DNA of 64,000 bases, taken from assembly GCF_025200925.1 (NCBI RefSeq), contig NZ_CP104174.1, positions 1,302,001 through 1,366,000 of the forward strand. The letters are read 5' to 3'. This document shows positions 18,608-32,792 of this stretch, piece by piece (position 1 is the stretch's first letter; each line of letters starts with the position of its first letter). Made by a program: the position numbers and the translations under genes. The DNA is from Bradyrhizobium sp. CB1015 (lineage in GTDB: Bacteria; Pseudomonadota; Alphaproteobacteria; Rhizobiales; Xanthobacteraceae). The notes beneath the pieces are model-generated. The model searched no databases, was not told where the DNA came from, and saw only the letters and a program-made list of their open reading frames with translations.

Positions 18608-20065
18608 ATGAGGAGCTCTCGCGTGATCGCCGCCAGCACCGCCGCCAAATCGTCTTGGTCCGACCAGGTGCGCGCGAGGCCCACCGTGCTCAACGACACG
18701 ACATTGCGCGACGGCGAGCAGGCACCTGGCGTTGCGTTCACCACAGAGGAAAAGCTGGGGATCGCGCAGGCGCTGGCGCGGGCCGGAGTCACGGAGATCG
18801 AGGCGGGAACGCCGGCGATGGGCAACGAGGAGATCGCCGCCATCCGCGCCATTGTCGAAGCAGATCCTCCGCTGACCACCATAGGCTGGTGCCGGATGCG
18901 GGAATCTGATGTCGACGCGGCGATCGAAGCAAAGGTGTCCATGATCAACATGTCGATCCCGACCTCCGATGTCCAGATCGCGGCCAAGCTAGGTGGTCAT
19001 CGCGACATGGCGCTAGAACGGGTGAAGCGAGTGGTAGGCTATGCCTGTGAGCGCGGACTTGAGATCGCCGTCGGTGGTGAGGACTCCTCCCGCGCCGACA
19101 TTGATTTTCTCATTAGACTGATGGCGACTGCAAAAGCCGCGGGCGCGCGTCGCTTTCGTATTGCAGATACGCTCAGTATGCTCGATCCCGACGCAACCTA
19201 CGCGCTGGTCGGAAATTTGCGTGCGACTACTGATCTCGAACTCGAATTTCACGGTCACGATGATCTAGGACTCGCAACCGCGAACACGCTCTCCGCCATC
19301 AGGGCTGGCGCGAGCCACGCCTCAGTGACCGTCATCGGGCTGGGCGAGCGGGCCGGAAATGCACCGCTCGAGGAAATCGCGGTCGCACTCAAGCAGCTCT
19401 ACGGGCGCGAGACCGGCATCATACTCCCGGAGCTCGAGAACGTCGCCACGGTGGTAGCAGCCGCGGCCGCACGTGCGATTCCTATGAACAAGGCGATCGT
19501 CGGACAGCATGTATTTACGCACGAATCCGGGATTCATGTCGCTGGCCTTTTGAAGGATCAGTGCACCTATCAATCGCTTGATCCCGCTTTGCTTGGCCGC
19601 TGCAACCGCTTTGTGTTCGGCAAGCATTCCGGACTTGCGGCGATCACCGCGTTACTCGATGAACTGCAGCTCGTCGCCAGCGACGATCAAGCCAGGCAGA
19701 TCCTGTCGCAAGTCCGCAAATATGCCATCGAGCACAAGCTGCCGGTCGAGCGCGAAACCGTGGCGGCGATTCTGGCGCGACGTGTGCGGATGCTTGGCAA
19801 CCTACCCCGCGTGAAAAGCCGTGTCCAGCAACGTTTGCGTCGACTCTTCGCAAACCGACGCGCTGCAAGGACAGTGTCCGATGTCGCTGATGGCGCGAGC
19901 GGCGTCCAGCTTTCGCACGTCAGATCCCCTTGCGCGATCTCACCTCCAGATCTTACTTCCCGTTCCGCCATACAAGCTGTGATCTCCTACCCAACGACGC
20001 GCCGTCCCCGGACCGCCAATCGGCATCTTCTCGCGCGGCTGATTTGCAGTCCGACGACCTCCTGA
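18608..20065 (+). CDS. nifV: Homocitrate synthase NifV with C-terminal extension
   Basis: Condenses acetyl-CoA and 2-oxoglutarate to homocitrate, the organic ligand of FeMo-co. Family motifs are [18 protein letters not shown] near residue 28, [20 protein letters not shown] (metal-binding HxH, near residue 215), [11 protein letters not shown] and [16 protein letters not shown]. The conserved enzyme ends near residue 390 ([15 protein letters not shown]); about 90 further residues rich in Arg and Ser follow and look non-homologous, perhaps from loss of the original stop. AGGTAGGT precedes ATG 18608. It has its own NifA site and sigma54 promoter, and lies between nifQ and nifW. Most rhizobia lack nifV and depend on plant homocitrate. 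Confidence 0.93.
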
Positions 20066-20289
20066 CGAGCGTCAACCTAGATCGTGGTTTGGCCATTGAT
20101 CCCGGATCTTCATCGGGACTGGCTTCGTCACCGGCGGACCTGCCGATCTGGGCAGCGAAGTTGAGACCGCCGCTTTCGGGACTCAGGCTGTGGCGATGCG
20201 GACCAGCTGTGCGAGGCAGGACGGCAGAAGTCAACAGGCGCCACCCCATCTCATTGACCGTCCAGAGCTAAGCCGAAGGAGAATTTTCG

Positions 20290-20631
20290 ATGATCAGCTC
20301 ACCCACGCCAGCCGGTATCCTGGATCGGCTCAGCAAGGCCTCGTCGGCAGAGGATTTTTTCTCGCTGCTTGGCGTCGATTACGACCCCAAGATCGTAAAT
20401 GTCGCACGCCTTCACATCTTAAAGCGCATGGGACAATATTTTACCGAAGAGCAATTTACTGGCGCCGAAGAGCCGGAAATCAGAGCGAGGTGCAAGGCGA
20501 TGCTGGAGCAAGCCTATGCAGATTTTGTGGCATCGTCACCGATCGATCAGCGAGTGTTCAAGGTTTTGAAGGATGCCGTCGCGGACCGTAAGAAGGCCGG
20601 GGCCTTTGTCCCGTTGAGCGAGTTGAAGTGA
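20290..20631 (+). CDS. nifW: NifW
   Basis: 113-residue NifW, which protects or stabilises the MoFe protein and helps its maturation. Recognised by LSKASSAEDFFSLLGVDYDP, VNVARLHILKRMGQYF and the C-terminal FVPLSELK. AAGGAG lies upstream of the ATG. It follows nifV by 224 bp without a new sigma54 element, so it is probably expressed from the nifV promoter. Confidence 0.94.
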   Translation: MISSPTPAGILDRLSKASSAEDFFSLLGVDYDPKIVNVARLHILKRMGQYFTEEQFTGAEEPEIRARCKAMLEQAYADFVASSPIDQRVFKVLKDAVADRKKAGAFVPLSELK

Positions 20632-20849
20632 TTTAGCGTTTCACTGTAAAGCGAATTACGACCGGCCGGCGCCGAGGCAATCCGATATTGGGGCCATCTC
20701 TTTGTGCTCAAGTATCTGCAGCCATCACCGGAGCGGCGGCTGTCGTATTCCCGACCCATGTCTGGACTGGTCGTGTCGACGGTATCAGGGGTTGTTTGAA
20801 TTGTGTCGCAGGCCATTACTTCCGACTGGCTTTCAATGGTCTTTGCAAC

Positions 20850-20865
20850 TGGTACGACACTTGCT
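20850..20865 (+). promoter_or_regulatory. Sigma54 -24/-12 promoter of the fix genes
   Basis: TGGTACGACACTTGCT: one mismatch (C to T) to TGGCACG-N4-TTGCW, GG and GC intact. A near NifA site, TGTCGTATTCCCGACC (last base of ACA changed), lies at 20742-20757. Confidence 0.7.
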
Positions 20866-21090
20866 GTTGTCCTGCCAGCGGTGCCGACAGATGGCAGTCG
20901 ACCGCGATGAGTTTGAAGGAGGACCTATGATGCTGTTTTTACTACCTGCTGAGACCTGCGCTACCATTTCGAGGCGCATAATCGCGTTAGCTCCCCTCGA
21001 AACCGGTTTTGACGCGATCAAAGCTCCGTAACGTCGGTGAGATGCTGGTCAATGGATAAGTCTTCGCTTCGCGTTACTCCTGCACTCCGT

Positions 21091-21540
21091 ATGCACAACA
21101 TCATCTGCATCAAATCGGTCGCCGATCCCGCTCAGATTTGTGCCCATCTCATGGCGGATGGGAACGGTGCCACGAAGAGCGCCAGGTTCGGCCCATACGG
21201 AGTGCTTTCGTTTGATGGCCGGGATGGATTGCGTGACAGAAGTGTTGCCAGGATCGCCCTCGTTTGCACCGCCAATGTGGAGTCGTTGGGCCGAACTGGG
21301 TCGCAGGTACTGCGCAGCGTACGAACTCGCCCACTCAGGCGCCGAAGCGATCGGTTAGAATCACCACAGCGCCCTGGCGAGCCGCGGTGGCGCTCGTCGA
21401 ACCCGACGGGTAACGGTCGAGTTTGGAAGACCTCTGCAAATCCAGTCGGACGGGTGCGTCTATTGCGACGACCTGTGTTGTTGTGTGGCCGGTCCGAACA
21501 CGCAGGCGGGGCAGAGCAGCCAGCCACTTGCTAACCGAAA
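21091..21540 (+). pseudogene. fixA remnant
   Basis: Opens MHNIICIKSVADPAQI, the hallmark start of FixA/EtfB-type proteins (usually MH.VVCIKQVPDSAQI). Further diverged matches follow: a GPYGVLSFDGRDGLRD stretch where FixA has NPYDLFALEEALRLRD, then in another frame a segment like the GPPM...ALRKAL region. Only about 150 of the usual 280 codons can be placed and frames change. It lies directly upstream of fixB behind a sigma54 promoter. The flavoprotein beta subunit is therefore missing here and must come from elsewhere if FixBCX is to work. Confidence 0.55.
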
Positions 21541-21615
21541 GTGATCTTCAGTTGACGAAGCGAAAAAGCAACCCGTGGCGCCGGCGCCCCTATCGTTGAG
21601 GAGGAATTTGAAACT

Positions 21616-22725
21616 ATGAGCAACGTCAGCAGAACGGCCATGCCAGCGGCTGCCGGCCGCGCAGCAGCCAAAAAAGAGCTGCCGGAGCGCTTTAAGTCGT
21701 ACAAGCACGTCTGGGTCTTCGTCGAGCTTGAGCGTGGTCAGGTGCATCCCGTTTCCTGGGAGCTTATGGGTGCAGGGCGCGGCCTTGCCGACAGGCTAAA
21801 AGTGAATCTTGCCGCTGTGGTTATCGGTCCGGAGGGGCAGCACACACGTAACGCCGCGCTTGAAGCCTTTTGCTATGGCGCCGATCTGGCCTATCTCGTG
21901 AGCGACAATGTTTTGTCGGATTACCGTAACGAATCCTATACCAAGGCGCTAACCGAACTCGTCAACACGTACAAGCCCGAGATCCTGCTGTTGGGTGCGA
22001 CGACGCTCGGTCGCGATCTCGCAGGTTCTGTGGCCACGACCCTGTCGACGGGGCTCACTGCCGACTGCACCGCGCTGGACGTGGACGCCGATGGTTCGCT
22101 TGCGGCGACGCGTCCGACCTTTGGCGGCTCGCTGCTCTGCACGATCTACACGCTAAATTATCGTCCGCAGATGGCCACCGTCCGCCCGCGGGTCATGCCG
22201 ATGCCTGAGCGTGTCGACCGCGATGCCGCTCGTATCGTCGTTCATCCGCTCGGCCTTTTCGAAGACGATATCGTCACAAAAGTATTGTCATTTCTGCCCG
22301 ACCGCGATGCACAAACGTCCAATCTGGCCTATGCCGATGTCGTGGTTGCGGGCGGCCTAGGGCTAGGATCGCCTGAGAACTTTCGGTTGGTGCGCGAGCT
22401 CGCAAATCTGCTTGGCGCCGAATATGGCTGCTCGCGTCCTCTCGTGCAAAAAGGGTGGGTTACGTCTGACCGGCAGATCGGCCAGACAGGCAAAACCATC
22501 CGGCCGAAGCTCTATATTGCCGCGGGCATTTCCGGTGCGATCCAGCACCGGGTTGGCGTCGAGGGCGCGGATCTGATCGTCGCTATCAATACTGACAAGA
22601 ACGCTCCGATCTTCGACTTCGCCCATCTCGCGATCGTCAGTGATGCCATTCAATTGCTACCTACGCTGACGGCTGCATTCCGCGCGCGGCTTTTGCCAGA
22701 GTCGCGCGCCCGGATCGCGGTCTAG
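21616..22725 (+). CDS. fixB: FixB, electron-transfer flavoprotein alpha subunit
   Basis: 369-residue EtfA-type protein. With FixA, FixC and FixX it bifurcates electrons from NADH to quinone and to ferredoxin/flavodoxin for nitrogenase. Visible are [20 protein letters not shown] at the N-terminus, [17 protein letters not shown] and the C-terminal FAD-binding signature [12 protein letters not shown].....[25 protein letters not shown] lies before ATG 21616. It precedes fixC by 5 bp. Confidence 0.96.
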
Positions 22726-22736
22726 AGGAGATGAGG

Positions 22737-24044
22737 ATGATTGAAGAGAAATTCGATGCGATCGTGGTCGGAGCCGGTATGGCCGGAAATGCGGCGGCAT
22801 TGACGATGGCCAAACGCGGCATGAAGGTGCTGCAGCTCGAGCGGGGCGAATATCCCGGATCGAAGAATGTGCAGGGCGCCATCCTATATGCCGATATGAT
22901 GGAAAAGCTGATCCCCGAGTTTCGAGAGGAGGCGCCGCTCGAACGCCACCTGATCGAACAGCGGTTCTGGATGATGGACGACCGCTCCCATGTCGGCATG
23001 CACTACCGTTCGGAGGACTTCAACGAGGAGCGGCCGAACCGCTATACGATCATACGCGCTCAGTTTGACAAATGGTTTTCTTCCAAGGTGCGTGAAGCTG
23101 GTGCGATCGTGCTGTGCGAGACCACCGTCACCGAGCTCGTACGGGACGATCGTGAAAGGATCGTCGGTGTTCGTACAGATCGCAGAGACGGCGAAATACA
23201 TGCCGACGTCGTCGTCCTGGCCGAAGGGGTCAATGGCCTGCTCGGCACACGTGCAGGCCTACGCGCGCGCCCGACAGCCGACAACGTTGCGCTCGCGGTT
23301 AAGGAAATGCATTTCCTGCCTCGCGAGACTATCGAGGCGCGCTTCAATCTCAGGGGCGATGAAGGCGTCGTGATCGAGGCGGCCGGCACCATTTCTCGTG
23401 GCATGACCGGGATGGGTTTCATCTACGCCAATAAAGAGTGCATTTCGCTTGGCATCGGTTGTCTTGTCGCCGACTTCCAGCGCACTGGCCAAACGCCGTA
23501 CGGACTGCTCGATCAATTCAAGAGGCATCCCTCTGTGGCGCCCCTGTTAGCAGGGTCCGAAGTCAAGGAATATTCGGCGCATCTCATCCCCGAAGGCGGT
23601 TACAAGTCGATCCCGCAGCTTTTTGGGGAAGGCTGGGTCGTAGTGGGCGATGCAGCCCAACTAAACAATGCCATTCATCGTGAGGGCTCCAATCTCGCGA
23701 TGACCTCCGGCCGTATCGCCGCGGAAGCGATCGGTCTGGTTAAATCACGCGGCGAACCGATGAGTGCAACAAATCTGTCAATTTACAAGAAGATGCTGGA
23801 CGATTCGTTCGTCATCAAAGATCTGAAGAAGTACAAGGATTTGCCGCCCCTAATGCATACTCACTCCCAGAACTTCTTTCTCACCTATCCGCAGCTCATC
23901 TCCAAGGCGATGCAGAACTTTGTGCGCGTCGATGGTACGCCCAAGGCTGAAAAGGAGAAAGCTAGCCTGAAATCCTTTGTCAAGGCGCGGTCATGGTCAG
24001 GTCTGTTTGGGGATGCTTGTCGTCTTGCGCGGGCCTGGCGCTGA
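22737..24044 (+). CDS. fixC: FixC, flavoprotein-quinone oxidoreductase
   Basis: 435-residue FAD enzyme of the ETF-QO family. Dinucleotide-binding [17 protein letters not shown] at the N-terminus, [28 protein letters not shown], and the second FAD motif [20 protein letters not shown]. It takes electrons from FixAB to the membrane quinone pool. ATG 22737 ([10 protein letters not shown]) fits family starts and has GAGATGAGG; ATG 22731 is two codons upstream. Cotranscribed with fixB and fixX. Confidence 0.95.
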
Positions 24045-24082
24045 CCGCAACAGTGTGAAGTCCAACAATGGAAGGCTAAAGC

Positions 24083-24379
24083 ATGAGTTCCGAACCCGCG
24101 GTGCGCGTCGAAGACAAGCTGTATTACAACCGCTATCTTGTCGACGTCGGAAACCCTCACGTCAAGGTCCGTGCGCACACAACGCCATCGCCGCAGCTAC
24201 TTTCACTTTTGAAAGTCTGCCCCGCGCGGTGCTACGAGCTCAACGACGGCGGCCAGGTCGAGGTAGCGGTGGACGGCTGCATCGAGTGCGGTACCTGTCG
24301 CGTTATCGCTGAGCCGACCGGGGACATCCAATGGAGCCATCCGCGCGGCGGGTATGGTGTGCTGTTCAAGTTTGGGTGA
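24083..24379 (+). CDS. fixX: FixX ferredoxin-like protein
   Basis: 98-residue small Fe-S partner of FixC, equivalent to the C-terminal domain of mammalian ETF-QO. Cluster ligands are [10 protein letters not shown] and [10 protein letters not shown]. It follows fixC by 38 bp and ends the fixBCX unit. Confidence 0.95.
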
Positions 24380-25728: not shown

Positions 25729-25736
25729 GTTCTTAG
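25729..25736 (+). repeat. 8-bp target-site duplication of IS66 (left)
   Basis: GTTCTTAG immediately before the IS66 left repeat. The same 8 bp occur at 32785-32792 after the right repeat. Eight bp is the normal IS66 duplication length. Confidence 0.93.
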
Positions 25737-25744
25737 GTAAGCCT

Positions 25745-25753
25745 CCGGTGGAG
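25745..25753 (+). repeat. 9-bp target duplication of Tn5-like IS, copy A
   Basis: CCGGTGGAG here and again at 27331-27339. These are bases 9-17 of the IS66 left terminal repeat. Confidence 0.92.
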
Positions 25754-27330
25754 CTTTCAATTACCCATAACTTTGACCACTCGAGCTGATCCGCTGATCG
25801 GCGAAATCTTGAATCGAAAGAATCACTTGTGATTCCTTGCTGAGCACCTGATTCGCGAGGGGGTGCTCTATGGGGCTGACATTAAGGGATCGATCGACAA
25901 GAGGCTGTTTGCGGTCCTTGGACGGGGAATGTTGGATTGATCGAGAGAGTAGTGGATGCGAGTTTAGGGACGCGCGGCTCGGCGACAGATTCCGCAAACT
26001 GCTCACGCAGATTGGAAGCGCCATGGGACAAAGCATTCCGCTCGTCTGCCAGGATTGGGCGAATACCAAGGCAGCCTACCGCTTCTTCTCTAACGACCGG
26101 GTCAGCGAAGCGGACATTCTGGCCGGCCATTTCCAATCGACACGTGATCGTGCCGCCGCCACTGGAGATCTCGTTCTTGTGCTGCACGATACAACCGAGT
26201 TCAGCTATCAACGCGAGAAGTCAGAAGCGATCGGCATCACCAAGAGCATAAACAGTGGACGGGATAAGGCAGGTCGCCTCAGATCGCACACGGTTTGCGG
26301 CATCCTGATGCATTCGAGCCTCGCGGTTACAATCGAGGGGGTGCCGCTGGGGTTGGCGGCCGTTAAGTTCTGGACCCGGAAGAAATTCAAGGGGACGGCA
26401 GCGCTTAAAAAGAAGATCAATCCGACCCGGATTCCCATCGAGAAAAAGGAAAGCGTCCGGTGGTTGGAAAATCTGAAGCAGTCTACGCAACTCTTGGATC
26501 ATCCGGGACGATGCATCCATATTGGTGATCGCGAGAGTGACATCTACGAACTCTTCTGCGCAGCACAGGAGATCGGAACCCATTTCCTGATCAGGACCTG
26601 CGTCGACCGCTTGGCTGGAGACGGGGATCACACCATCGCCGACGAAATGGACGAGGTCGCCGTCAAAGGGCTCCATCGCATCGAAGTCAGAGACAGCAAC
26701 GGCGATCCCGACCAAGCCGTTCTTGAGATCAGGTATCGCAAGATACGCGTTCTGCCGCCGATCGGAAAGCAGAAGCGCTATCCCGCTCTGACCCTGACAG
26801 TGATCCATGCCGAAGAGCGCGGGACGCCGAAAAACAGAAAAAAGATCGATTGGAAGCTGATCACCGACCTGCCTGTTGGTTCCCGCACCGACGTCATTGA
26901 GAAGCTCGAATGGTATGGTTTGAGATGGAAGATCGAGGTGTTCCACAAGATCCTCAAATCGGGCTGCAAAGCTGAGGAGTCGAAGCTTAGGACCGCCCAG
27001 CGTCTGACCAACCTGATCTCGCTCTTTTGCATCCTGAGTTGGCGGGTCTTCTGGATGACGATGCTCAACCGTTCCGCCCCAGACGCGCCACCAACGCTCG
27101 CGTTGACTGCGACTGAAATCGGCGTGCTCGATCGCCTCGTCAACGACAAACCAAGAGCAAGACGGAGAACGCTCTCGCACTATCTGATCAAGATCGCCCG
27201 GCTCGGCGGTTATCTCGCCCGCGCCAGCGATCCGCCGCCCGGCAATACGGTCATGTGGCGCGGGCTGTCACGCCTCACCGACATCGCGCTGGGCGCCATG
27301 GTCGGAGGAGAATTTGTGGGTAATTGAAAG
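25754..27330 (+). mobile_element. IS4-family (IS50/Tn5-like) insertion sequence, copy A
   Basis: 1577 bp, bounded by inverted repeats starting CTTTCAATTACCCA at both ends (left continues TAAC, right CAAA). Flanked by 9-bp duplication CCGGTGGAG. One transposase gene fills it. It has the same length as copy B and its predicted transposase is identical in sequence, which indicates recent transposition. Confidence 0.95.
25870..27327 (+). CDS. Tn5/IS4-type transposase, copy A
   Basis: 485-residue DDE transposase resembling Tn5 Tnp: FRDARLGDRFRKLL, WANTKAAYRFFSNDRV near the N-terminus, the first catalytic Asp in LVLHDTTEFSY, the second in IHIGDRESDIYELF, and the YREK signature as YGLRWKIEVFHKILKSGCK. 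The stop lies 3 bp before the IS end. No frameshift. It should be active if expressed. It acts on the element's terminal repeats. Confidence 0.93.
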   Translation: MGLTLRDRSTRGCLRSLDGECWIDRESSGCEFRDARLGDRFRKLLTQIGSAMGQSIPLVCQDWANTKAAYRFFSNDRVSEADILAGHFQSTRDRAAATGDLVLVLHDTTEFSYQREKSEAIGITKSINSGRDKAGRLRSHTVCGILMHSSLAVTIEGVPLGLAAVKFWTRKKFKGTAALKKKINPTRIPIEKKESVRWLENLKQSTQLLDHPGRCIHIGDRESDIYELFCAAQEIGTHFLIRTCVDRLAGDGDHTIADEMDEVAVKGLHRIEVRDSNGDPDQAVLEIRYRKIRVLPPIGKQKRYPALTLTVIHAEERGTPKNRKKIDWKLITDLPVGSRTDVIEKLEWYGLRWKIEVFHKILKSGCKAEESKLRTAQRLTNLISLFCILSWRVFWMTMLNRSAPDAPPTLALTATEIGVLDRLVNDKPRARRRTLSHYLIKIARLGGYLARASDPPPGNTVMWRGLSRLTDIALGAMVGGEFVGN

Positions 27331-27407
27331 CCGGTGGAGGCCGCCTTCCCGGATCGGGTTCGAGCGTGAGATGGTTTGCTCATTAATTGGCAAGCAAATG
27401 AGCAAAC

Positions 27408-27809
27408 GTGACGACGGTTACGGTTCTGTCCGGTCCAGAGCGGCGACGGCGGTGGACGAGTGCCGAGAAGCTTCGGATCGTGGAGGAAAGTCTGGCGCCT
27501 GGGGCCAGTGTTGTCGAGGTTGCTCGGCGACATGACGTTCACCGCAATCTGGTTACGGCTTGGCGGCGGCAGGCTCGCAGGGGCGTCCTCGCTTGCGGGC
27601 CTGAGCCGATGCCGCGACAGGATGGCGAAGTCGGTTTTGCGGCAGTCTCCATTGCGCCAGACCTGCAACCGTTGACGGCGCCCTCCGGAAGCTGCGGTGC
27701 GATCGAGATTGAGTTCGCGGCCGGGGCTCGGATGCGGATCACGGGCGCGGTTGACGCGGCGACGCTGAGCGCAGTCGTGGCGGCGCTGACTGATGGACGG
27801 CCACGATGA
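27408..27809 (+). CDS. tnpA: IS66 TnpA (accessory protein)
   Basis: 133 residues with a helix-turn-helix of the IS66 TnpA/IS3-OrfA kind: RRRRWTSAEKLRIVEESLAP, GASVVEVARRHDVHRNLVTA, WRRQAR. It overlaps tnpB by 4 bp (ATGA), the normal IS66 arrangement. Intact. Confidence 0.92.
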   Translation: MTTVTVLSGPERRRRWTSAEKLRIVEESLAPGASVVEVARRHDVHRNLVTAWRRQARRGVLACGPEPMPRQDGEVGFAAVSIAPDLQPLTAPSGSCGAIEIEFAAGARMRITGAVDAATLSAVVAALTDGRPR

Positions 27810-28153
27810 TCCCGTTGCCTGCCGGCGTGCGGGTATGGCTCGCGACCGGCCATACCGACATGCGGAAGGGCTTTCCGTCGCTTGCGTTGCAGGTTCAGGA
27901 GATCCTGCATCGCGACCCGCTTGGCGGCCACCTGTTTTGCTTCCGCGGTCGCCGGGGCAATCTTTTGAAGGTCATCTGGCATGACGGCCAGGGCGCCTGT
28001 CTGTTCACGAAGCGCCTGGAGCGAGGGCGCTTCATCTGGCCGAGCCCGGCGGAAGGTGTGGTGACGATCTCGTCGGCGCAGCTCGGCTATCTCTTGTCCG
28101 GGATCGACTGGCGGCACCCACAAGAGACGTGGCGGCCGACATCGGTGGGATGA
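27806..28153 (+). CDS. tnpB: IS66 TnpB (accessory protein)
   Basis: 115 residues: LPAGVRVWLATGHTDMRKGF, LFCFRGRRGNLLKVIWHDGQ, GACLFTKRLERGRFIWPSP. This is the standard IS66 Orf2, needed for efficient transposition. Intact, and coupled to tnpA. Confidence 0.95.
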   Translation: MIPLPAGVRVWLATGHTDMRKGFPSLALQVQEILHRDPLGGHLFCFRGRRGNLLKVIWHDGQGACLFTKRLERGRFIWPSPAEGVVTISSAQLGYLLSGIDWRHPQETWRPTSVG

Positions 28154-28198
28154 GGCTTTGGGCTTGCGGATCGTGATGGATGTGATTCCATCATCATC

Positions 28199-28994
28199 GT
28201 GACCACATTTGAATCGCTCCCCACCGATCTTGCCGCCGCGCATGCGATGATCCTCGCGGAGCGCGCCGCGCGTCTTCAAGCGGAAGCGGTCGCGGCGAGC
28301 GCCAAAGCGGAAGCTGCCGACGCGAAGGCGGCCGAGGCCCTGATCAGTTATCTCAAGCTCGAGATCGAGAAGCTGCGTCGCCAGATTTATGGCAGCCGCT
28401 CGGAGCGCAAGGCACGGCTCCTAGAGCAGATGGAGCTTGAGCTCGAAGAATTGGAAGCCACCGCAACCGAAGACGAACTGGCGGCCGAGAGGGCGGCGGC
28501 CAAGACACAGACCGTCAGATCTTTCGAGCGCAAGCGGCCGTCGCGCCAACCGTTCCCCGACCATTTGCCGCGCGAGCGTGTCGTAGTCGCCGCACCGCAG
28601 AGCTGCCCTTGCTGCGGCTCATCGAAGCTATCAAAGCTGGGCGAAGACATCACCGAGACGCTGGAGGTCGTTCCCCGGCAGTGGAAGGTGATCCAGACGG
28701 TTCGCGAGAAGTTCTCGTGCCGGAACTGCGAGACGATCACCCAGCCGCCAGCGCCCTTCCACGTGACGCCGCGCGGCTTTGCCGGGCCGAACCTGCTGGC
28801 AATGATCCTGTTCGAGAAGTTTGGCCAGCATCAGCCCTTGAACCGACAGAGCGAGCGCTACGCCCGGGAGGGTATCGTTCTGAGCCTGTCGACACTGGCT
28901 GACCAGGTCGGCGCCTGTGCGGCGGCCCTGCAGCCGCTTTATGGGCTGATCGAGCGTCACGTCCTCTCCGCCGAGCGACTGCATGGCGATGACA
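28199..28994 (+). pseudogene. IS66 TnpC transposase, 5' part, cut by intron
   Basis: About 265 codons of TnpC: coiled-coil N-terminus, LEIEKLRRQIYGSRSERKAR, zinc-binding CPCCGS and FSCRNCE, then GFAGPNLLAMILFEKFGQHQ, up to HGDD. In intact TnpC HGDD is followed by TTVPVL; here the frame runs into intron sequence at 28995. About 200 codons between this point and the C-terminal piece at 30981 are absent, so even precise splicing would not restore the enzyme. Confidence 0.85.
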
Positions 28995-30975
28995 GTGTGC
29001 TGCAGAAGCACACGGAAAGGATGATCGAGATGATCTGAAAATCTGTGTGCACAAGCTGTGGCAGCGATGAGGGTAGGCCCCTCGGGATCGACTTTCAGGA
29101 GTAGGTCCCAAATCACTTCAAGCGGCTTCGCTTAAGAGGCGCGGTCGTGAGCGTTGAAGCCAACGGTCGGGAATACCCGAACGGATAGGCGTCCGAGAGA
29201 CGAATGAAAATGAACCCGCCGATGAACCGTCGTAACGTGGAAATCGTCGTCAAAACCAGAGGTGTGTCGTCCCTCTGGGATGAGCCCGCCGGAAGCCTGA
29301 TGACCGGGCGGGCGGCGACCGGCGTTGAGGGGGCGTGAATCGGATGCAGGCGCTGCCGCGGAACTGCAGGAACCAGTCGCTCCGATGGAAAGGGAGAAGC
29401 ACAAGCGGAGAAGACCGCGAGGCGAGATTACCGACGCGGAGCACTGGGACGGACCGATCCGTATTAGCGACGAAGGCTCGTAATGGGGCCGGAGCAAAGG
29501 GATCGGATCAGGAGGGCTGGCCACCGTCGCAACTGACAACAGGAGGACGACGGTGAACCAGCCGAGCAAACCGTTCAACATCGACAAGAGAGAGGTGTAC
29601 GAAGCATATCTGCAGGTGCGATCCAATGGTGGCGCAGCCGGTGTCGACGGAGTGACGATTGAGCAGTTCGAGTCCGACTTGAAGAGCAATCTCTACAAGA
29701 TTTGGAATCGAATGAGCTCAGGCGCCTACTTCCCGCCGCCTGTTCGCGCCGTCTCCATTCCAAAGAAGAGTGGGGGCCAAAGGATCCTCGGGGTGCCCAC
29801 TGTGGCAGACCGCGTGGCACAGACGGTTGTCAAACAACTAATTGAGCCGGCTCTCGACGCAATCTTTCTGGCGGATTCTTACGGCTACAGACCCGGTAAA
29901 TCGGCTCTCGATGCCGTAGGCGTAACGCGACAGCGGTGCTGGAAGTACGATTGGGTTCTGGAGTTCGACATCAAGGGACTGTTCGATAATATCGACCACG
30001 AGCGTCTGCTGCGGGCCGTCCGGAAACATGTGACGTGCGCATGGGCGCTGCTCTACATTGAAAGATGGCTGACAGCGCCGATGGTGCAAGAGGATGGAAC
30101 GATAATCGAGCGAAGCCGCGGTACCCCACAAGGGGGCGTGGTGAGCCCGATCCTCGCCAACCTCTTCATGCACTATGCATTTGATCTCTGGATGGCACGG
30201 ATGTTCCCCGATCTCCGGTGGTGTCGGTATGCAGATGACGGGTTGGTACATTGTCGGAATGAGATGGAGGCGCAAAGCATTCGCGAAGCGCTCCAGGCTC
30301 GGCTGGCAGAGTGCTGCCTGGAACTGCATCCTACGAAGACGAGGATCGTCTACTGCAAGGACGACCGACGCCGGGGCAAGACTGAGACGGTCATGTTTGA
30401 CTTTCTCGGTTATTGCTTCCGGCCGCGATCGGTCCTGCGGCCGCGTTCGCAGAGGATGTTCTGCGGGTTCACTCCGGCGGTCAGCAAACCAGCGCTGAAT
30501 GCCATGCGAGCGACGATCCGAAGCTTGAAACTTCGCAAGCGAACCGAGGTGACTTTGGACGATATTGCCCGCGAGCTAAACCCGATGGTTAGGGGGTGGA
30601 TCGCTTATTATGGGCAATATACGCGTTCGGCGCTCTATCCTTTGGCGCGCTACATCAACCAGACGTTGGCTATCTGGTTGAAGCGAAAGTACAAGCGCTT
30701 CCATCACCGCTTGGGACGCGCGCGTCTCTTCCTGGAGAAGATCGCGCGTGAGAACCGCAGGCTCTTTGTGCATTGGCAACTCGGCGATGGCGGCAAGCTT
30801 GCCTGATGGGAGCCGGGTGAGGCGAGAGTCTCACGCCCGGTTGTGTGTCCAGCGAAGGCTGGCATGTTCAGCAGGAGACAAACCTGCCGGGGTAGAAGTC
30901 AGAGCCCCGTAGTTTGGATAGCAGAGGTGATGGAAACTGAAACTCTGAAGCCTATCGACAAAGTCTCCACGTGGT
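28995..30975 (+). mobile_element. Group II intron with encoded maturase
   Basis: The 5' boundary is set at 28995 because tnpC homology ends there and the next bases are GTGTG, a group II 5' motif. The ORF at 29553 lies in a long structured region. After it, GAGCCGGGTGAGGCGAGAG at about 30809 followed by TCTCACGCCCGGTT is a clear domain V hairpin. The 3' boundary is not resolved: it lies between about 30845 and 30980, where tnpC-like coding resumes. Confidence 0.75.
29553..30806 (+). CDS. ltrA: Group II intron reverse transcriptase/maturase
   Basis: 417 residues. RT blocks visible: GVDGVTIEQFE, VSIPKKSGGQRILGVPTVAD, EFDIKGLFDNIDHE, RGTPQGGVVSPILANLF, and catalytic YADD at residues 226-229. 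The C-terminal maturase (X) domain is present (MVRGWIAYYGQYTRSALYPL). No HNH endonuclease follows, so mobility would rely on RT and maturase only. The start GTG is preceded by AGGAGGACG. It appears intact. Confidence 0.94.
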   Translation: MNQPSKPFNIDKREVYEAYLQVRSNGGAAGVDGVTIEQFESDLKSNLYKIWNRMSSGAYFPPPVRAVSIPKKSGGQRILGVPTVADRVAQTVVKQLIEPALDAIFLADSYGYRPGKSALDAVGVTRQRCWKYDWVLEFDIKGLFDNIDHERLLRAVRKHVTCAWALLYIERWLTAPMVQEDGTIIERSRGTPQGGVVSPILANLFMHYAFDLWMARMFPDLRWCRYADDGLVHCRNEMEAQSIREALQARLAECCLELHPTKTRIVYCKDDRRRGKTETVMFDFLGYCFRPRSVLRPRSQRMFCGFTPAVSKPALNAMRATIRSLKLRKRTEVTLDDIARELNPMVRGWIAYYGQYTRSALYPLARYINQTLAIWLKRKYKRFHHRLGRARLFLEKIARENRRLFVHWQLGDGGKLA

Positions 30976-30980
30976 GCCGA

Positions 30981-31149
30981 CCGCGCCGCCACCATGGCGA
31001 CGCTAATCATGACGGCAAAGCTCAATGACGTCGATCCGCAAGCCTGGCTGGCGGACGTCTTGGCCCGCATCGCCGGCACCCCGCAAGGTCGGCTCAATGA
31101 GCTGCTGCCTTGGGAATGGAAGAACAGCCCTGTTCAGTCTGCGGCCTGA
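30981..31149 (+). pseudogene. IS66 TnpC transposase, C-terminal piece
   Basis: One frame reads ADRAATMATLIMTAKLNDVD, then PQAWLADVLARIAGTPQG and LNELLPWEW, then a stop. This is the IS66 TnpC C-terminal element. It resumes just after the intron, and the intervening catalytic half of TnpC is missing. Confidence 0.8.
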
Positions 31150-31181
31150 TCGGGCCACCGCACCGCGGATCATCCCGCGGC

Positions 31182-31190
31182 CCTCACCGG
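31182..31190 (+). repeat. 9-bp target duplication of Tn5-like IS, copy B
   Basis: CCTCACCGG here and at 32768-32776. Read from the IS66 right end it is CCGGTGAGG, again bases 9-17 of the terminal repeat. Confidence 0.92.
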
Positions 31191-32767
31191 CTTTCAATTA
31201 CCCACAAATTCTCCTCCGACCATGGCGCCCAGCGCGATGTCGGTGAGGCGTGACAGCCCGCGCCACATGACCGTATTGCCGGGCGGCGGATCGCTGGCGC
31301 GGGCGAGATAACCGCCGAGCCGGGCGATCTTGATCAGATAGTGCGAGAGCGTTCTCCGTCTTGCTCTTGGTTTGTCGTTGACGAGGCGATCGAGCACGCC
31401 GATTTCAGTCGCAGTCAACGCGAGCGTTGGTGGCGCGTCTGGGGCGGAACGGTTGAGCATCGTCATCCAGAAGACCCGCCAACTCAGGATGCAAAAGAGC
31501 GAGATCAGGTTGGTCAGACGCTGGGCGGTCCTAAGCTTCGACTCCTCAGCTTTGCAGCCCGATTTGAGGATCTTGTGGAACACCTCGATCTTCCATCTCA
31601 AACCATACCATTCGAGCTTCTCAATGACGTCGGTGCGGGAACCAACAGGCAGGTCGGTGATCAGCTTCCAATCGATCTTTTTTCTGTTTTTCGGCGTCCC
31701 GCGCTCTTCGGCATGGATCACTGTCAGGGTCAGAGCGGGATAGCGCTTCTGCTTTCCGATCGGCGGCAGAACGCGTATCTTGCGATACCTGATCTCAAGA
31801 ACGGCTTGGTCGGGATCGCCGTTGCTGTCTCTGACTTCGATGCGATGGAGCCCTTTGACGGCGACCTCGTCCATTTCGTCGGCGATGGTGTGATCCCCGT
31901 CTCCAGCCAAGCGGTCGACGCAGGTCCTGATCAGGAAATGGGTTCCGATCTCCTGTGCTGCGCAGAAGAGTTCGTAGATGTCACTCTCGCGATCACCAAT
32001 ATGGATGCATCGTCCCGGATGATCCAAGAGTTGCGTAGACTGCTTCAGATTTTCCAACCACCGGACGCTTTCCTTTTTCTCGATGGGAATCCGGGTCGGA
32101 TTGATCTTCTTTTTAAGCGCTGCCGTCCCCTTGAATTTCTTCCGGGTCCAGAACTTAACGGCCGCCAACCCCAGCGGCACCCCCTCGATTGTAACCGCGA
32201 GGCTCGAATGCATCAGGATGCCGCAAACCGTGTGCGATCTGAGGCGACCTGCCTTATCCCGTCCACTGTTTATGCTCTTGGTGATGCCGATCGCTTCTGA
32301 CTTCTCGCGTTGATAGCTGAACTCGGTTGTATCGTGCAGCACAAGAACGAGATCTCCAGTGGCGGCGGCACGATCACGTGTCGATTGGAAATGGCCGGCC
32401 AGAATGTCCGCTTCGCTGACCCGGTCGTTAGAGAAGAAGCGGTAGGCTGCCTTGGTATTCGCCCAATCCTGGCAGACGAGCGGAATGCTTTGTCCCATGG
32501 CGCTTCCAATCTGCGTGAGCAGTTTGCGGAATCTGTCGCCGAGCCGCGCGTCCCTAAACTCGCATCCACTACTCTCTCGATCAATCCAACATTCCCCGTC
32601 CAAGGACCGCAAACAGCCTCTTGTCGATCGATCCCTTAATGTCAGCCCCATAGAGCACCCCCTCGCGAATCAGGTGCTCAGCAAGGAATCACAAGTGATT
32701 CTTTCGATTCAAGATTTCGCCGATCAGCGGATCAGCTCGAGTGGTCAAAGTTATGGGTAATTGAAAG
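31191..32767 (-). mobile_element. IS4-family (IS50/Tn5-like) insertion sequence, copy B
   Basis: 1577 bp, reverse of copy A with the same ends (CTTTCAATTACCCA). Flanked by CCTCACCGG. Relative to the IS66 end it occupies, it has the same position and orientation as copy A. Confidence 0.95.
31194..32651 (-). CDS. Tn5/IS4-type transposase, copy B
   Basis: 485 residues; the predicted sequence appears identical to copy A at 25870-27327, including HDTTEF, HIGDRESD and the YREK region. Intact, and encoded leftward. A pair of identical inverted copies 3.9 kb apart could recombine and invert the intervening IS66 segment. Confidence 0.93.
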   Translation of the reverse strand: MGLTLRDRSTRGCLRSLDGECWIDRESSGCEFRDARLGDRFRKLLTQIGSAMGQSIPLVCQDWANTKAAYRFFSNDRVSEADILAGHFQSTRDRAAATGDLVLVLHDTTEFSYQREKSEAIGITKSINSGRDKAGRLRSHTVCGILMHSSLAVTIEGVPLGLAAVKFWTRKKFKGTAALKKKINPTRIPIEKKESVRWLENLKQSTQLLDHPGRCIHIGDRESDIYELFCAAQEIGTHFLIRTCVDRLAGDGDHTIADEMDEVAVKGLHRIEVRDSNGDPDQAVLEIRYRKIRVLPPIGKQKRYPALTLTVIHAEERGTPKNRKKIDWKLITDLPVGSRTDVIEKLEWYGLRWKIEVFHKILKSGCKAEESKLRTAQRLTNLISLFCILSWRVFWMTMLNRSAPDAPPTLALTATEIGVLDRLVNDKPRARRRTLSHYLIKIARLGGYLARASDPPPGNTVMWRGLSRLTDIALGAMVGGEFVGN

Positions 32768-32784
32768 CCTCACCGGACGGTTAC

Positions 32785-32792
32785 GTTCTTAG
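32785..32792 (+). repeat. 8-bp target-site duplication of IS66 (right)
   Basis: GTTCTTAG directly after the right terminal repeat, matching 25729-25736. Sequence from 32793 is therefore the original upstream flank of the ahpC promoter. Confidence 0.93.

Follow-up and report, generated by a model that had tools for sequence, protein, structure and literature searches.

IS1383 of Pseudomonas putida reportedly targets the inverted repeats of another insertion sequence (IS), IS1384, and IS231A prefers the ends of Tn4430, a Tn3-family transposon. Tn5 transposase, a model enzyme and laboratory tool, inserts nearly at random. IS4321 and IS5075 (IS110 family, IS1111 group) go into one constant position of the terminal repeats of Tn21-type transposons, a "safe harbour", and IS5075-type off-targets, for example in ureC, resemble the repeat (PMC8269217). 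The DEDD transposases of the IS110 family rely on a bridge or seek RNA as their guide (PMC11187229, PMC11208158). Within the IS4 family, IS231A of Bacillus, which belongs to a subgroup other than IS50, has some insertion specificity (PMC2266710), all counted copies of ISRm22 of Sinorhizobium meliloti lie in repetitive extragenic palindromic (REP) sequences, and a preference for a 9-bp target sequence is ascribed to IS50 (PMC1525189). Here we analysed a 64,000-nucleotide stretch of Bradyrhizobium sp. CB1015 (contig NZ_CP104174.1, positions 1,302,001 to 1,366,000; hereafter the window), from a genome that is a single contig of 8.4 Mb. An IS66-type element in this window carries a copy of one Tn5-type IS in each of its two terminal repeats. 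Comparison with other insertion sites makes it very probable that the transposase of this IS selects a target resembling the tip of an IS66 end, clade-wide, and suggests that double hits collapse.

The IS66-type element spans positions 25737-32784 of the window and is flanked by the 8-bp target duplication GTTCTTAG (25729-25736 and 32785-32792), as expected for the IS66 family; the octamer occurs once in the IS66-free genomes (L251, L252, L253). Copy A of the IS (1577 bp, plus strand, ends CTTTCAATTACCCA) lies at 25754-27330 and encodes a 485-aa Tn5-type transposase (25870-27327); copy B (1577 bp, minus strand) lies at 31191-32767, with its transposase at 31194-32651. The two copies are identical at 1577 of 1577 bases. 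Copy A is bounded by the 9-bp duplication CCGGTGGAG, at 25745-25753 and, as the inner copy on the plus strand, at 27331-27339, and copy B by CCTCACCGG, with the inner copy at 31182-31190 (minus strand) and the outer one at 32768-32776; the reverse complement of the latter 9-mer is CCGGTGAGG. Numbered from the tip of the IS66 end in which it lies, each 9-mer takes up bp 9-17: the left tip (25737-25753, plus strand) reads GTAAGCCT followed by CCGGTGGAG, and the right tip (32768-32784, minus strand) reads GTAACCGT followed by CCGGTGAGG. These coordinates bear out an earlier note, made from the sequence alone, which had placed the two IS copies at bases 9-17 of both ends of an IS66 element with an 8-bp duplication. 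In both copies the left end of the IS faces the IS66 tip, and the copies are mutually inverted.

The earlier note had taken this arrangement to mean that the IS recognises IS66 ends, and had proposed a survey of the duplications and flanks of other copies, which we carried out. Copies were taken from a named-genome scan (best 80 of 330 relatives), from a genus scan, in which 123 of 265 genomes matched the IS, and from additional stretches found by further scans and in plasmid records; among 397 genomes drawn across the order, only 7 had a match. In the first survey, 155 non-redundant copies had one or both of their ends. A perfect 9-bp duplication was present in 65, and 62 of these had the IS66-like tip; the rest comprised 13 copies with the tip on both sides, 17 with both ends but neither feature complete, and 60 with one end only. 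After loci had been added and near-identical sites collapsed, 115 duplication-flanked copies yielded 68 independent sites, and in 62 of them one or both flanks had GTA at an outward distance of exactly 8 bp from the duplication, the IS66-like tip at the distance predicted. Counted per flank, GTA started at this offset in 64 of 136 flanks, with 0-3 flanks at each of the offsets 3-7 and 9-39, giving a single spike; L192 and L193 have a tip on both sides of the duplication. The tip lay at the left end of the IS in 32 flanks and at the right end in 32, an even division, and the common orientation relative to the occupied end that the note had remarked on is real at the window locus but is not a general property.

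The offset rule held from 100% down to about 53% transposase identity. Tips were present in 20 of 22 sites at 85-100% identity, 19 of 20 at 70-85%, 18 of 20 at 60-70%, 5 of 5 at 45-60% and 0 of 1 below 45%, which amounts to 62 of 67 sites above 45%. The hosts that obey it include Bradyrhizobium, Paraburkholderia, Caballeronia, Azospirillum, Sphingobium, Methylocystis and Roseobacteraceae, among others. The tip was absent in all six readable relatives at about 29-36% identity (L202, L262, L264, L266, L267, L268); in the distant relatives L263, L265, L203 and L207 the duplication was not readable. In L202, L262 and L264 the IS lies instead between arms rich in C and in G, apparently a further target preference within the wider family.

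We then related these sites to IS66. IS66 genes lay within 800 bp on the inner side in 24 of 68 sites and on the outer side in 2, one of which is L119, a tipless site whose sides were named arbitrarily. Plasmid gene tables show IS66 genes adjoining L198 and L201. Among the 62 tip sites, 39 had IS66-like ends, assigned in 24 cases by IS66 genes just inside, in 5 by inner sequence and in 10 by eye. A spread of target sites over unrelated sequence without enrichment for IS66 repeats, which the note had named as the result that would count against its proposal, is not what the survey gave, as reflected by the single-offset spike and by the excess of IS66 genes on the inner side. The other 23 tip sites keep the motif without recognisable IS66, and because they do, it is probably the sequence of the outer 17 bp that is read, not IS66 as such. 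The proposed recognition of IS66 ends therefore stands as regards the tip at the predicted distance, but the target appears to be the sequence that these ends carry. Eight of the 23 fall within joined open frames that exceed 300 codons, such frames being no proof of genes. A matrix built from the 33 sites without IS66 genes or an inner match (GTA being fixed by the selection of sites, and ten of the 33 being later assigned to IS66 by eye) showed C as the sixth base in 29 of 33, followed by a less marked CGG-GAA core.

The genome of the window has 12 TnpB_IS66 matches, 10 of them between 1.33 and 1.78 Mb. The strict motif GTANNCNTCCGGNGANG occurs six times in its 8.4 Mb; three occurrences are occupied by this IS or its relics, and a fourth lies about 2.6 kb from IS66 genes. 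The tip at the copy A end (GTGGAG) does not fit GTANNCNTCCGGNGANG, and the relic L006 has GTG instead of GTA. At L193, on a plasmid of Microvirga ossetica, tip-like arms stand on both sides (GTAAGGGC...CAGGTTAC) around a perfect duplication, and at L076 and L089 (Cupriavidus) GTAAAC...GTTTAC arms surround a 10-bp repeat, which is perfect in L076 but imperfect in L089. These two-sided arms suggest that both target arms are readable.

The window locus could be followed in sister genomes. Its right flank was found in 11 of 265 genus genomes, own genome counted, and the left flank matched in all six of the others in which it was sought. In G143, G081 and G096 the sequence shows the flanks joined over a single GTTCTTAG without IS66, and in G205 they join without IS66 by coordinates only. 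G261 has the IS66 with both ends unoccupied. In G130 only the right end is occupied, by another IS of about 70% identity that sits at the base used by copy B, in the opposite orientation (L040/L249); free left ends were read at L254, in G261, and at L255. These genomes form an allelic series that runs from no IS66, through IS66 with both ends free and IS66 with the right end taken by the other IS, to the doubly occupied window, and one IS66 insertion seen in three genomes has received three hits into bp 9-17, at two positions and by two different ISs. In G261, bases 9-17 of the free left end (L254) are identical to those in the window, while those of the free right end (L250) are CCGGTGGGG against CCGGTGAGG in the window. 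Because the unoccupied ends show each end's own bases 9-17, the window copies look like two insertions, not one copied by conversion. This agrees with the two independent hits of the earlier note.

A second doubly hit IS66 was found in G141 (L215), where both ends carry direct copies, identical at 1578 of 1579 bases, and the 8-bp duplication is intact; double hits are thus known in inverted (window) and direct (L215) orientation. At L208, L213, L139 and L059 one end is hit and the other is free with the same octamer, and at L224 one end has been hit twice (tip-duplication-IS-duplication-IS-duplication). We also identified 17 tip-IS-tip units, four of them located by hand (L074, L200, L205, L206); L112 and L223/L124, with tips off by one or two bases, were kept outside the 17. 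The two 17-bp tips of a unit are inverted relative to each other and share between 8 and 17 of their 17 bases, and the outer octamers match at 7-8 of 8 positions in seven units, versus 0 of 272 mismatched pairs. Because seven of the 17 remnants have IS66-type outer duplications, they suggest that double hits collapse and erase IS66. A palindromic target for these units was considered and rejected, since the two 9-mers are not direct repeats, although L193 has GTA arms on both sides. One unit, L200, is on plasmid p1_LIP1804061 of Leptospira noguchii, a spirochaete far from the proteobacterial hosts; it has identical 17-bp tips, and its transposase is annotated in two pieces.

Possible scars were also found. 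Tips abut at five places in 5 of 265 genomes, with a spacing of 0 once and of 1 in four (reversed-pattern control, 0). G037 is the one of these that contains the IS, and none of the five places has a matching outer octamer, which is present at L161, where abutting tips were found separately. Duplicated 9-mers occur in 4 of 265 genomes, with a spacing of 0 once and of 1 in three (control, 0); G214, with the IS beside the repeat (L237/L211, G214:C1:8368360), and G212, without it (L236, G212:C1:2127331), share one such locus, and both have the 9-bp repeat with a one-base spacer. Such abutting tips and duplicated 9-mers are likely excision footprints, and we do not rely on them as evidence.

Based on these observations, we propose that the transposase selects a target resembling bp 1-17 of the IS66 terminal repeat (about GTAAGCGT-CCGGTGAAG) and that the IS ends would be joined at inward distances of 8 and 17 bp from the tip, with duplication of bp 9-17. 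The motif may be read by the transposase protein itself. As the sites compared show, the preference is common to a clade with more than about 45% transposase identity, and both ends of one IS66 can be hit in either relative orientation. Direct double hits would then recombine to tip-IS-tip with loss of the IS66 interior, a step whose precursor and products are seen at different loci.

Several other explanations were weighed. IS66 transposase bound at the IS66 ends might attract the IS in place of DNA reading, and IS66-like ends are far commoner among the targets than the off-target matrix predicts. However, the tip stands at its usual offset also in sites where no IS66 can be recognised, the IS has gone into abutting tips that lack an IS66 interior (L100, L161), and an already occupied tip was hit again at L224; we regard such recruitment as quite unlikely. 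That IS66 is a neutral landing zone, with insertion nearly random and survival of those copies that do no harm, seems hardly credible. Selection surely purges many genic insertions, and the stretch that holds 10 of the 12 TnpB_IS66 matches in the own genome could be a neutral region, but survivors would then be expected all along IS66, whereas the spacing observed is one base position; IS66 genes lie inside rather than outside at 24 sites to 2, and the eight off-target sites in long joined frames still have the tip. Gene conversion or recombination, by which the second window copy would derive from the first, could account for their complete identity, but the duplications are not the same, each of them fits, with its inner flank, the end where it lies, and in sister genomes either both ends are free or just one is occupied. 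This leaves such an origin very improbable. For the tip-IS-tip units, movement by IS66 transposase or one-step joining of two paired IS66 ends, instead of recombination, would fit the IS66-type 8-bp duplications of 7 of 17 units and their inverted, similar tips. We consider this unlikely, though worth keeping in mind: a direct-repeat precursor exists (L215), no unit was found at two places, and the tips differ in the only genome known with two units (G197: L141, L144).

Some results weigh against selection of an IS66-tip-like target followed by collapse. The tip is missing in six of 68 sites (L225, L119, L033, L195, L196, L202), of which L119 adjoins IS66 genes with a divergent tip and L202 is outside the clade. 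Ten of the 39 IS66-like assignments were made by eye, the reversed control of GTANNCNTCCGGNGANG gives 3 matches versus 6, and 10 of the 17 tip-IS-tip units have no matching outer octamer and need another history. Scanned with a matrix made from the 23 off-target sites, 8.4 Mb of sequence contains about 1,700 positions that score equally well, as against the 12 TnpB_IS66 matches of the own genome. The IS66-like character of 39 of the 62 tip sites therefore needs more than this matrix, be it recognition of the full consensus, selection against genic insertions or some other factor.

We assigned the inserting element to the IS4 family (Tn5/IS50 type). The best solved-structure match of its transposase is Tn5 transposase (1muh, E 2.1e-18), and the alignment, judged by eye, retains DTT, DRE and YGLRWKIEVFHKILK, that is, the DDE residues and the Y(2)R(3)E(6)K signature. 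IS4/Tn5 models of Pfam and NCBIfam match the protein, PF02281 under its cut-off. The left end, CTTTCAATTACCCATAACTT, the one end compared, fits by eye the IS50-subgroup end consensus CW------Y---CA-A--W- (PMC2266710, Table 1), and the 9-bp duplication is in the 8-9 bp range of this subgroup. With 1577 bp, and 1506-1686 bp among relatives with readable ends, the IS is slightly longer than the usual 1350-1550 bp (PMC2266710). The DEDD recombinase and guide RNA of IS110/IS1111 elements were not found: the transposase is of the Tn5-type DDE class, and a guide RNA was sought via Rfam only.

The interior of the window element contains IS66 tnpA (27408-27809, plus strand, open reading frame, PF01527), tnpB (27806-28153, plus strand, open reading frame, PF05717) and, at 28199-29038 on the plus strand, the N-terminal part of tnpC (PF03050 positions 2-78 of 284, PF13005, PF13007), the three genes expected of the family. 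The tnpC homology stops near 29002, where a group II intron interrupts the gene (approximate limits 29047-30968, plus strand; Rfam RF01999 at 29069-29185 and RF02003 at 30869-30997). The intron contains an open reading frame for a reverse transcriptase/maturase (29553-30806, plus strand; RVT_1, GIIM, TIGR04416), and a C-terminal tnpC remnant is recognised by homology at 30952-31128 (plus strand). Because tnpC (28199-31128) holds the intron and has lost about 216 middle residues, which are retained in G261 and G130, the IS66 transposase of the window is probably dead; the occupied ends may in addition block IS66 transposition, as the note had suggested. As in a composite transposon of the Tn5 type, a segment, here with IS66 TnpA, TnpB and N-terminal TnpC, lies between two copies of one IS; no single 9-bp duplication encloses the whole unit, as the outer 9-mers CCGGTGGAG and CCTCACCGG differ and each copy has its own duplication. 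Adjoining the element, at 18608-24379, are genes of nitrogen-fixation type (homocitrate synthase, electron transfer flavoprotein, oxidoreductase), as on a symbiosis island.

No report of an IS4-family element in IS66 ends was found among the literature matches listed, and an ISfinder entry may exist; the main texts of PMC2266710 and PMC1525189 do not mention IS66, a statement that covers the text and not the figures, such as Figure 3 of PMC2266710 with the target arms of IS4 subgroups. The pairing of a Tn5-type transposase with IS66 ends is thus one for which we found no report, while the targeting of transposon ends as such is already known (IS5075/Tn21, IS1383/IS1384). Through its single exact spacing and its motif of some 17 bp, a natural clade of Tn5 relatives would illustrate how sequence specificity arises in a DDE transposase of this fold, and such transposases would be material for site-directed insertion. 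One transposon family serves as the landing site of another and is apparently destroyed by its guest, with the stages visible in genomes as an empty end, a hit at one end, hits at both, a collapsed remnant and perhaps a scar. It is conceivable, at somewhat less than even chances in our judgement, that this clade, which ranges from Bradyrhizobium to Burkholderiales, Sphingomonadales and Roseobacteraceae, has in its evolution made the outer 17 bp of IS66 repeats a dedicated, protein-read target, and that double hits and their collapse make it a hyperparasite that steadily disables another transposon family.

Like IS4321 and IS5075, the window IS goes to one set position in the ends of a different kind of transposon, and its off-targets resemble the repeat; unlike these RNA-guided DEDD elements, it has a Tn5-type DDE transposase and makes 9-bp duplications. 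As with IS1383 and IS1384, one IS uses the ends of another, the element families being different. The window IS differs from IS231A in IS4 subgroup and in target, and from ISRm22, of the IS4Sa subgroup, in targeting transposon ends instead of extragenic palindromes. With Tn5/IS50 it shares the subgroup end signature and the 9-bp duplication. Unlike IS50 as described (PMC1525189), this IS and its relatives have a tip-like octamer in the 8 bp outside the duplication, at 62 of 68 sites.

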